The notes under the pieces: generated by a model
Databases searched by the model: none
What the model saw: the letters and a program-made list of their open reading frames with translations, nothing else
What the model was told of the DNA's origin: nothing
Program-made: the position numbers and the translations under genes
From: a virus
DNA length: 31,691 nt
Virus record (IMG/VR): IMGVR_UViG_3300044953_000401
Location: 1-31,691 of that record
Direction: 5' to 3' (one strand)
Shown: positions 3,063-21,638 of the stretch, in pieces
Position numbering within the stretch: the stretch's first letter is position 1
Layout: the number at the start of each line of letters is the position of its first letter

Positions 3063-3668
3063 ATGAACAGGGGCGACATTCTCAAACGGCGTCCGGGTCG
3101 CGTTCTCGTGGCGTGCGAATACAGCGGCAGAGTTCGGGACGCATTTGCCCGTCGTGGTTGGGATGCGTGGTCATGTGACCTGCTGCCGAGCGAGATGCCT
3201 GGCAACCACCACCAAGGCGACGTGCGGGAAATCCTGGGCGAAGGCTGGGACATCATGGTGGCGCACCCGCCCTGCACTCATCTGGCGGTGAGCGGTGCGC
3301 GCTGGTTCGCGGCAAAGCAGCGTGAGCAGGCTGAGGCTCTGGACTTCGTGCGGCTGCTTCTGGCCGCGCCGATCCAGCACATCGCGCTGGAAAATCCGGT
3401 GAGCATCATCAGCTCGAAAATCCGAAAGCCTGACCAGGTGATTCAGCCTTGGCAGCACGGCCACGGCGAGACCAAGGCGACTTGCCTGTGGCTCAAGAAT
3501 CTCCCGCTTCTCGCGCCGTCGCAGATCGTGGAAGGCCGCGAGCAACGAATCTGGAAACTGCCGCCGAGTGCGGACCGGTGGAAGGAACGAAGCCGGACGT
3601 TCTCCGGCATAGCCGAGGCGATGGCGAAGCAGTGGACTGCCTTCCTGCCTTCCTGCCTTCCAAATTGA
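3063..3668 (+). CDS. DNA C5-cytosine methyltransferase-like protein
   Basis: This 201-residue protein probably methylates cytosine in DNA using SAM. A Rossmann-like first strand reads RVLVACEYSGRVRDAFARRG, a variant motif I. The stretch DIMVAHPPCTHLAVSG holds HPPCT (residues 68-72), with Cys71 as the candidate catalytic cysteine, and ALENPVS holds Glu110-Asn111-Pro112, like the ENV motif. It is shorter than classical enzymes and lacks an obvious target-recognition domain, as is common in this compact phage family. ATG 3063 is chosen because GGAAGGG lies just upstream and family similarity begins there. The last residues (FLPSCLPN) are encoded by repeat arm 2, so the original stop was probably replaced when the arm arrived. 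The gene sits exactly between inverted arms, suggesting it moved as a cassette. Its target sequence is unknown. Confidence 0.75.
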   Translation: MNRGDILKRRPGRVLVACEYSGRVRDAFARRGWDAWSCDLLPSEMPGNHHQGDVREILGEGWDIMVAHPPCTHLAVSGARWFAAKQREQAEALDFVRLLLAAPIQHIALENPVSIISSKIRKPDQVIQPWQHGHGETKATCLWLKNLPLLAPSQIVEGREQRIWKLPPSADRWKERSRTFSGIAEAMAKQWTAFLPSCLPN

Positions 3669-4044: not shown

Positions 4045-4169
4045 AACACAACACGCCACTGCACTTCACGCCACGTCACCTCACAACACTTCACAGCACG
4101 GCATCCAACAGCACCGCACCACACTACACACCACTCCACCTCACGACATAGCACGACACACCACAACAC
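4045..4169 (+). repeat. Tract of 25 phased NNCAC pentamers (leader of the next gene)
   Basis: Twenty-five five-base units run without a phase break; 22 end in CAC and the other three differ from NNCAC by one base (GGCAT, CCAAC, GACAT). The first two bases of each unit vary freely, so this is a degenerate period-5 array, not a simple microsatellite. It ends six bases before the ATG at 4176 and leaves no room for a Shine-Dalgarno sequence. Guanine is scarce, so RNA from it should be unstructured. Bases 3999-4044 before it show no other feature. Confidence 0.9.
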
Positions 4170-4175
4170 ATCGCC

Positions 4176-4745
4176 ATGAAAACTGCAATCATCGCACTGT
4201 CCTCCTGTTCCGCCATGACCCAAAGCCGCAAGCACGACACGCCCAAGACTAGCGACCGCGAGGGGGCCGCGGACTACGAGGCGCGCACCTGGATCAACAA
4301 GGCGCACTTCACCGCTGACGACCGCGTGTTCATCCCCGCCTTCGCCCTCAAGTGTTCGACGGTCGCCGCGGCCCGCTACACCGGCGACACCATCCCCGGC
4401 AAAGGCAAATCCACATGGACCAAGAAACTCCAGTCCGGCCTGCTGATTCCCGACGACGCCGTGACCAACCGCAAGCGGGCCGACATCGTTGCCGTCACCA
4501 TCAACGCCAATGCCGACGGCGTGCGCGGCTCCGGCAAGCGGGTCAGCCGCACCTTCCCCACGCTGACTCAGTGGGAGGCAAAGGTGACCGTCTATGTGCT
4601 CGATGACATCATCACCAAGGACGTGTTGCAGAAGTATTTCACCTACGCCGGCCAGTTCATCGGCGTGGGCCAATACCGCCCCGAGAACGGCGGCACCAAC
4701 GGCCGCTTCAAGGCCACCGTCGAATCGTTCGCAGAAATGTCCTGA
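4176..4745 (+). CDS. Conserved phage protein with C-terminal GVGxxRPENGG motif
   Basis: This is 189 residues from ATG 4176, or 176 from ATG 4215. The body (HFTADDRVFIPAFALKCSTV; then IPGKGKSTWTKK) and the ending (FIGVGQYRPENGGTNGRFKA) match a recurrent phage family of unknown function. That ending, in which a Gly-rich turn leads into a final strand, is its best hallmark. From 4215 the protein begins MTQSRKHDTPK, which looks like family N-termini. From 4176 it gains 13 mostly hydrophobic residues, but that ATG stands directly after the pentamer tract, as in the next gene. Neither start has a Shine-Dalgarno sequence. Position among replication genes suggests a role in DNA metabolism; this is inference. 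Confidence 0.65.
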   Translation: MKTAIIALSSCSAMTQSRKHDTPKTSDREGAADYEARTWINKAHFTADDRVFIPAFALKCSTVAAARYTGDTIPGKGKSTWTKKLQSGLLIPDDAVTNRKRADIVAVTINANADGVRGSGKRVSRTFPTLTQWEAKVTVYVLDDIITKDVLQKYFTYAGQFIGVGQYRPENGGTNGRFKATVESFAEMS

Positions 4746-4750
4746 GTTTC

Positions 4751-4835
4751 ACCACGGCGCATCACCGCATTCCACTGCACACCACGTCACCTCACTGCAC
4801 GCCACAACACATCGCCCCACAACACGACACTTCAT
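4751..4835 (+). repeat. Second NNCAC pentamer tract (17 units)
   Basis: Seventeen phased pentamers lie here, 13 of them NNCAC; the exceptions are GGCGC, CGCAT, ATCGC and TTCAT. The tract stops one base before the ATG at 4837. It shares CACGTCACCTCAC and CACAACACATCGCC with the first tract, so the two are related copies. No Shine-Dalgarno sequence is present. The whole gap between genes (4746-4836) is filled by this array. Confidence 0.85.
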
Positions 4836-4836
4836 C

Positions 4837-5358
4837 ATGGATTCCACCGAGATCAATCCCGCGCCACGCATCGGGCAGGCCAGCGTCGAGGCGCAGTTGC
4901 TGGCCAAGCGCCTGTCCGCGGTGGCGATGGGTGAAACCGTCACCTACGGGGAATTGTCGGACATCATCAAGCGCGACGTGCTGGAGTGCCGCCACATCCT
5001 GGGCACGGCCCGCCGGATTGCCCAGCGCGAGCACGGGGCCATCTTTGATTGCCGCTCCGATCACGCCGGCATCGTGCGCCTGAGCGACGCCGAGATGGCT
5101 GAAATCCCGTCCGCGAAGATCGCCAAGATCAACCGCATCGCCAGCCGGTCGGCGAAGGTGGCCACGCTGGTGGACTGGTCGAAGCTGGAGCCCGCGCAGC
5201 AGGCCAGCCTGTCCGCCACCATGAGCCTGTGCCTGTTCTTGCAGCAGGGAAGTTCCGTGAAATCCGTCGCCGCCATCCAGGCTTCGGCCACCCCGTCGGC
5301 CATCCCGGCCAAGGTGGACATGAAGGGGCTGCTCTCGCTGTTCAGCAAAACACCATGA
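4837..5358 (+). CDS. Phage winged-helix-like protein of unknown function
   Basis: This 173-residue protein starts at the ATG directly after the second pentamer tract. Residues 20-75 (AKRLSAVAMGETVTYGELSD through HILGTARRIAQREHGAIFDC) resemble a winged-helix fold: a helix, a short YGELS helix, a recognition helix, then a wing strand. This arrangement recurs in phage early proteins of unknown role. The C-terminal half has a basic helix (SAKIAKINRIASRSAKVATL) and Ala/Ser-rich helices. Its stop overlaps the next ATG (5355-5358), so the following gene is probably coupled. DNA binding is inferred from the fold; no partner or target can be seen. Confidence 0.65.
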   Translation: MDSTEINPAPRIGQASVEAQLLAKRLSAVAMGETVTYGELSDIIKRDVLECRHILGTARRIAQREHGAIFDCRSDHAGIVRLSDAEMAEIPSAKIAKINRIASRSAKVATLVDWSKLEPAQQASLSATMSLCLFLQQGSSVKSVAAIQASATPSAIPAKVDMKGLLSLFSKTP

Positions 5359-9720: not shown

Positions 9721-9797
9721 TGAATCTGGAAAGCAGGAAAGCAGGAACAAAAGAACAGGTTCCCTCCGATTCCTGCCTTCCTGCCTTCCAAATTGAA
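9721..9797 (+). repeat. Complete hairpin element (repeat arms 3 and 4)
   Basis: Arm 3 (9721-9746, plus) and arm 4 (9770-9797, minus) are inverted copies of the sequence that flanks the methyltransferase at 3063. Here they are separated by only about 23 bases, so the RNA or single strand can fold into a stem of roughly 26 pairs with few mismatches. It fills the gap between portal stop and the next ATG. It could also act as a terminator or RNA-stability hairpin, though there is no U-tract. Confidence 0.8.
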
Positions 9798-20714: not shown

Positions 20715-21638
20715 ATGAATCTATTGACGCGGCTCTTCGGCCGCCAGACGGAGCGGACAATCCCCATCACACGGCCAACCGGGCTGCTTGATGACCCGGA
20801 CTTCTCCCGTAAGACCATCCAGCTCAAGGCCCAGTTGGAAGCTGCCCTGAAGGGCAAGGCCGCGGCGGAACGGCGGGCCGAGCAGCGCATCGTCCGCTTC
20901 ACCCCGGGCAAGGACTTCGTGTGCGTGCTGCCGTTCTGTGCGGCGGATGAACACCGGTTCCGCGATCTACTGAAGTGGATTGCCGAGCTGGGCCGGGTGA
21001 ACGCCACGGCGTTGGTGGTGGTGCCGCGGTCGCTGCCTTTTTTGACCGTGTATTCGGACTTGTTGTCGGATGCCTTTGAGCAGTTTAGGTGGCTTGTAAC
21101 CCCGTTCGACCTGCCCAAGGAAGGCTGGCCGACGGGCACCTGCTGGAGCTTCCTGGTCGCCGCGGAGTATTGCCGGCGGACCCGGCTGGATTTCTGGCTC
21201 AACGAGCCCGACTGCATCCCGCTCAAGTCGGGCTGGTTTGACGCCCTGCGCGACGAGTATCGCACCTGCGGGCTGCCCTACATGGGGTTCGTGGAGCCGG
21301 CCACGGCGGACTATCCCGAGCACCTGACCGGCAACGCGGCGTATCACCATTCCGTGTTCCATCACTTCCGCGCCGACAAGCTGGGCACGGCGTGGGACAT
21401 CGCAATGGCCGACGTGCTCACGCCGCAGGCGCATCGCACGCGGCTGTTTTATCAGGAGTTCGGTCCGCTCGACCGGCCGCCCACGTTCCACACCGTGGAC
21501 GATCTGCGCCGCATACCCAAGGACGCCGTGGTGTTCCACCGCAACAAGGACGGCAGCCTGATCCGCGTGCTGCGGGAACAGCGGGCGGCGGTTGAATTTG
21601 GAAAGCAGGAAAGCAGGAAGAAGGGGAAGGGGGCATGA
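20715..21638 (+). CDS. Glycosyltransferase-like protein (GT-A type)
   Basis: This 307-residue protein has, after a charged N-terminal helix, FVCVLPFCAADEHRFRDLLK, the opening strand and loop of a nucleotide-sugar transferase. LDFWLNEPDCIPLKSGWFD (Glu164-Pro-Asp166) stands where GT-A enzymes carry their metal-binding acidic motif. FHTVDDLRRIPKDAVVFHRN and KDGSLIRVLR close the domain. It probably transfers a sugar to virion protein, DNA or host envelope; the acceptor is unknown. It is the first gene behind promoter B. The last 15 residues (from VEFGKQESRKKGKGA) are encoded by repeat arm 5, so the natural end was probably altered. The stop overlaps the FkbM-type gene (21635-21638). Confidence 0.7.
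   Translation: MNLLTRLFGRQTERTIPITRPTGLLDDPDFSRKTIQLKAQLEAALKGKAAAERRAEQRIVRFTPGKDFVCVLPFCAADEHRFRDLLKWIAELGRVNATALVVVPRSLPFLTVYSDLLSDAFEQFRWLVTPFDLPKEGWPTGTCWSFLVAAEYCRRTRLDFWLNEPDCIPLKSGWFDALRDEYRTCGLPYMGFVEPATADYPEHLTGNAAYHHSVFHHFRADKLGTAWDIAMADVLTPQAHRTRLFYQEFGPLDRPPTFHTVDDLRRIPKDAVVFHRNKDGSLIRVLREQRAAVEFGKQESRKKGKGA
21592..21620 (+). repeat. Repeat arm 5 (plus orientation, solitary)
   Basis: TTGAATTTGGAAAGCAGGAA followed by AGCAGGAAG is nearly identical to arm 3. It encodes the C-terminus of the glycosyltransferase. The purine-rich bases just after it (GGGGAAGGGGG) supply the ribosome binding site of the FkbM-type gene at 21635. I see no inverted partner downstream of that gene. Confidence 0.75.

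Follow-up and report, generated by a model that had tools for sequence, protein, structure and literature searches.

Probable VIPR guide arrays built on CAC in an environmental phage, and a Vipr residue that varies with the triplet's middle base

What are two strictly phased tracts of NNCAC pentamers doing in a phage genome, each placed immediately ahead of a gene? Both lie in a 31,691-base IMG/VR phage contig, which was analyzed over its whole length and is referred to here as the window. A first-pass annotation, made from the letters alone, had read the tracts as leaders of two consecutive genes, possibly loaded by ribosomal protein S1. We find it very probable that they are instead vrRNA (guide-RNA) arrays belonging to a phage VIPR system, with CAC in place of GGY as the constant triplet. 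VIPR (Viral Interference Programmable Repeat) is a CRISPR-like, RNA-guided phage system described in a 2026 preprint (PMC13142463) and studied in Escherichia phage SUSP1 and, as type II, in a Pseudomonas fulva prophage. Its guides, carried on a phage RAMP protein, consist of 9-16 pentamers in which a constant GGY, or 'a related consensus', alternates with hypervariable NN; the NN bases read DNA with one base skipped, and the system represses competing phages (PMC13142463). It has further been proposed that VIPR is related to the ancestor of the CRISPR RAMP proteins.

Two pentamer arrays and the genes beside them

Array 1, a candidate vrRNA array, occupies positions 4045-4169 on the plus strand and comprises 25 units, 22 of them exact NNCAC, with the NN series AA AA GC TG TT GC GT CT AA TT AG GG CC AG CG CA TA AC TC CT GA AG GA AC AA. 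Candidate array 2, at 4751-4835 on the same strand, holds 17 phased units (13 exact) with the series AC GG AT CG TC TG AC GT CT TG GC AA AT CC AA GA TT. Runs of ten consecutive phased CAC units are present in these tracts, compared to a maximum of 4 of 10 in the rest of the window on both strands and 3-4 of 10 in 20 Markov shuffles, so that our recount agrees with the strict five-base period originally annotated. The two tracts are indeed related, as had been proposed: they share a 15-base block, CCACAACACATCGCC, and an internal one, CCACGTCACCTCAC. The first copy of CCACAACACATCGCC (4161-4175, plus strand) is a candidate constant 3' end, or tail, of guide 1, judging from the constant array ends of relatives, and the second (4802-4816, plus strand) lies within array 2. 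Both arrays reach a start codon, but array 1 begins about 47 bases 3' of the end of the preceding gene, so the gap there is not wholly filled, contrary to the first description. An Rfam search of the window gave no match, and a scan for promoters and terminators predicted none.

The gene between the arrays (4176-4745, plus strand; 189 amino acids) matches nothing in Pfam or NCBIfam and belongs to a single PHROG of unknown function (phrog_4652). A profile built from 24 relatives, however, retrieved the PDB entry 36pp, 'SUSP1 Vipr protein', as the single relevant PDB match (E 1.5e-6), with the two sequences being distant from each other (31 bits). An AlphaFold model of the window protein (pLDDT 91.8) found its best PDB folds in type VII Cas7 and Csm3 (Foldseek E 1e-8, Z about 13), and its G-loop motif, GVGQYRPENGG, is conserved among relatives. 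By profile and model, the gene, hereafter vipr, encodes a RAMP/Cas7-fold protein with a G-loop, homologous to SUSP1 Vipr. The following gene (4837-5358, plus strand; 173 amino acids) is related to SUSP1 vap1: the profile of its family hits the gene that follows SUSP1 vipr (28.6 bits). A fold search with the vap (VIPR accessory) product returned weak winged-helix matches and nothing else, and the product looks winged-helix-like. Genes that could be named elsewhere in the contig encode a DnaD-like loader, a DnaB-like helicase, a DNA methyltransferase, an exonuclease-like protein, a major head protein and a tail protein, placing the system in a phage genome. It is the homology and predicted fold of Vipr, together with the SUSP1-like accessory gene, that point to a VIPR locus and to the arrays as its guide RNAs.

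Judged by protein, locus and repeat anatomy, the window appears to hold a member of VIPR: a Vipr RAMP protein, a downstream accessory gene and, at the DNA level, tandem pentamers on the vipr strand in which a constant triplet alternates with hypervariable NN. It departs from the published systems in its triplet, which is CAC (CGC or GGC in relatives) rather than the strict GGY; in the length of array 1, whose 25 units exceed the published 9-16; and in the placement of the arrays, which extend as far as the start codons and show no separate structured tail ahead of vipr. CAC is new relative to the published GGY, unless the 'related consensus' of PMC13142463 covers it, in which case the locus is only a new member.

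Another close comparison is with class 1 CRISPR systems, as Cas7/Csm3 proteins (type III-A Csm, type VII) share the RRM-like core and the G-loop, and Vipr, like them, is predicted to oligomerize along RNA. In contrast to these systems, the window has no CRISPR repeat/spacer array among its listed tandem repeats and no further cas genes nearby, the nameable neighbors being phage replication and structure genes. A class 1 Cas7 guide is contiguous with a six-base footprint, whereas in the window the period is five bases, three of them constant in each unit.

By analogy with the SUSP1 and P. fulva systems, we infer transcription of the arrays and their binding by Vipr, one small Cas7-like subunit being expected on every pentamer, with the constant triplet (CAC here) as its handle and the two variable bases displayed for pairing with DNA. 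The NN pairs would be read with one target base skipped between them, and the complex would repress transcription of a rival phage, satellite or prophage, with Vap as a DNA-binding accessory. The annotation's suggestion of a protein-binding ladder, each unit being one site, comes close to this arrangement, except that homology places the ladder on RNA.

Variable positions in homologous loci and competing explanations

When IMG/VR was scanned for runs of six CAC units in phase, at least 119 stretches were retrieved. A vipr homolog is close to the array in 28 of them, where the array usually precedes both vipr and the next gene on the same strand; the others comprise repeats of low diversity, ends of contigs, and diverse arrays whose stored stretch contains no vipr. 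Starting instead from the protein alone, we obtained 287 Vipr relatives. When loci from the protein search were pooled with the 28 found through the CAC pattern, phased period-5 arrays stood beside vipr, on the vipr strand, in 105 of 110 loci, and the vap family was conserved in 86 of the 110. In SUSP1, our positive control, GGY/NN arrays were confined to the vipr strand.

Across these loci the NN positions are diverse and the triplet is kept. Among 63 pairs of loci whose vipr genes share at least 85% identity and whose arrays differ (a non-independent set in which the pairs listed carry CGC arrays), mean identity was 91% for vipr and 86% for the triplet, but 30%, near chance, for NN. In five loci with near-identical vipr and identical vap, the array series differ and end in the same constant 3' end. 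The initial arguments that slippage alone is insufficient and that the CAC positions are under selection both gain from these comparisons, and the NN bases appear, from sequence, to behave as guides.

The best surviving alternative, though an improbable one, is an autoregulatory operator, in which Vipr or another oligomeric RNA- or single-stranded-DNA-binding protein coats its own mRNA leader and represses translation, leaving the NN bases uninformative. The model for such an arrangement is TRAP (trp RNA-binding attenuation protein), whose operator consists of (G/U)AG triplets at two to three base spacing with one subunit per repeat, and whose ring fold is unrelated to Cas7. The position of the arrays directly ahead of vipr and vap, the conserved triplet and the strict spacing would all suit an operator, as would the expected one Vipr subunit per repeat. 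However, window-type spacers are hypervariable over the whole series, the triplet is CAC and not (G/U)AG, and entire NN blocks are exchanged between phages with identical genes. Some relatives moreover carry arrays after vap (L024, L103), SUSP1 has its arrays downstream of both genes, and SUSP1 guides act in trans on programmed targets (PMC13142463).

The same arrangement bears on the leader role first assigned to the tracts, that is, a guanine-poor, unstructured segment that loads ribosomes via protein S1 without a Shine-Dalgarno site; we regard it as very unlikely. The window itself is compatible with this role, as a Shine-Dalgarno site is absent before both vipr and vap and array 1 is unstructured as sense RNA. 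In many relatives, an AGGA-type site separates the array from the ATG, so the annotated lack of such a site holds for the window but not for them. CGC and GGC arrays of related loci are neither CA-rich nor G-poor, and a five-base period is unneeded for such a role, which also does not predict the exchange of whole NN series between near-identical phages. As to the check proposed along with the leader role, phased CAC runs usually do sit before start codons in the 28 vipr loci, but some arrays follow the second gene. Finally, a functionless, degenerate microsatellite generated by slippage and kept by recombination is hardly credible: low-diversity phased CAC repeats do exist in other viral contigs, but the arrays stand beside vipr, on its strand, in nearly all pooled loci and vary in NN while keeping the triplet.

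Further array forms were observed as well. In five loci (L046, L052, L053, L101 and L102), blocks of about 9-13 CAC-phased units are separated by a constant spacer of 14-15 bases, for example GACAACAGTTTTCC or GACAACCGCTTTTCC, which reads as multi-guide arrays with a short constant tail. In seven others (L007, L016, L029, L066, L070, L094 and L109), the stored stretch has diverse CAC/NN arrays but no vipr was found in it; these are candidates for more distant Viprs or other systems.

Triplet types and the residue after the G-loop

Scoring of the 110 loci assigned CGC as the best triplet to 55, CAC to 43 and GGC to 12. The GGC members fall within the same Vipr clade as the CAC and CGC members; since GGC arrays are GGY arrays as published, CAC and CGC thus share one clade with them, and since GGC and CAC arrays both lie on the vipr strand, the strand of CAC is settled. 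Triplets cluster on the Vipr tree and have nevertheless changed repeatedly (17 changes versus 37.9 in shuffles). We rejected G+C content as the sole cause of CAC versus CGC: it correlates with CGC (rho 0.59) but is insufficient, because the window has 66% G+C and yet is mostly CAC.

Of all Vipr columns, the one directly after the G-loop (Gln166 in the window, codon at 4671-4673, plus strand) is the best at tracking the triplet's middle base (Fisher 1e-11, among 377 tests). Gln166-type loci carry CAC in 17 of 17 cases, whereas 49 of the 58 loci with Arg at this position have CGC or GGC; the other nine belong to about three lineages, in which Arg is found with CAC. A correlated-evolution (Pagel-type) test on a FastTree tree built without column 166 gave likelihood ratios of 37 for Gln and 42 for Arg, compared to 6-25 for seven other top columns. 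The association is partly shaped by sampling, because the CAC loci came mostly from the CAC pattern search; the protein-search set alone contains 2 Gln-A, 49 Arg-G and 1 Arg-A loci. A prediction set beforehand was that new Gln-type loci would carry CAC: only one new Gln locus was found (CAC, 8 of 8), and in the last scan all new Arg loci with clear arrays had a middle G. This out-of-sample test came out right but is small.

Gln-adenine and Arg-guanine are classical pairings, and we propose from the sequence comparison that the amino acid following the G-loop of Vipr contributes to selecting which base stands in the middle of the triplet (Gln-A, Arg-G). SUSP1 Vipr has Asp at the corresponding place. 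The joint evolution of position 166 and the middle base is new in that it is absent from the main text of PMC13142463. A broader reading, which we put forward tentatively and at somewhat less than even chances, is that VIPR uses several scaffold codes (CAC, CGC and GGC, apparently also GAC and CGA), that the G-loop-adjacent residue helps set the middle base, and that the lineages are orthogonal. If true, each lineage would accept its own scaffold alone, and competing phages would therefore be unable to load each other's guides. A large environmental Vipr clade in which the triplet switches between CAC, CGC and GGC, with one protein position in step, makes the scaffold-RNA choice of a Cas7-like protein testable by single-residue exchange and adds many candidates for minimal RNA-guided DNA binders. 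Array searches restricted to GGY miss most of this clade.

Further triplets were seen in three more loci. L393 and L411 have GAC/NN arrays up- and downstream of vipr and Phe after the Vipr G-loop, apparently a further scaffold code, and L403 has a CGA/NN array (middle G) upstream of vipr and Arg after the G-loop.

Target searches and further observations

Exact matches with a 1-nt skip were absent from IMG/VR for two of the window's three guide stretches. Comparing 343 guides with 4.0 Mb of VIPR-phage contigs and loci at skips of 0-2 gave counts close to those of shuffled guides, and two CGC guides had one exact 18-base match each, neither of which extends past the searched units, as expected by chance. 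A guide from a Methylococcaceae contig matched once in 311 genomes of its order, compared to 3 matches for the reversed control, and had no match in IMG/VR. The guides of relatives thus gave chance matches only in the collections searched; hosts and rivals of environmental phages are mostly unsequenced. In a likelihood model of codon phase and dinucleotides, a skip of 1 was the best model, but within-contig shuffles reached 44 of its 53 log units, so that composition explains most of this signal. As targets were not found, the 1-nt-skip reading is carried over from PMC13142463.

The Methylococcaceae contig (L202) belongs to a metagenome-assembled genome, and its CAC/NN arrays, at 690-860 and 1430-1540, flank vipr in a bacterial bin; a hairpin-like tail follows the first array. 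It was the only confirmed match with the Gln-type pattern in 84,980 genomes. The window itself contains other repeats, namely a tandem repeat of a 36-base unit within the DnaD-like loader gene (503-577) and perfect 8-base tandem repeats near gene ends, CTGCCTTC, GGAAAGCA and TTCCTGCC, at 3637-3661, 9728-9789 and 21600-21619.
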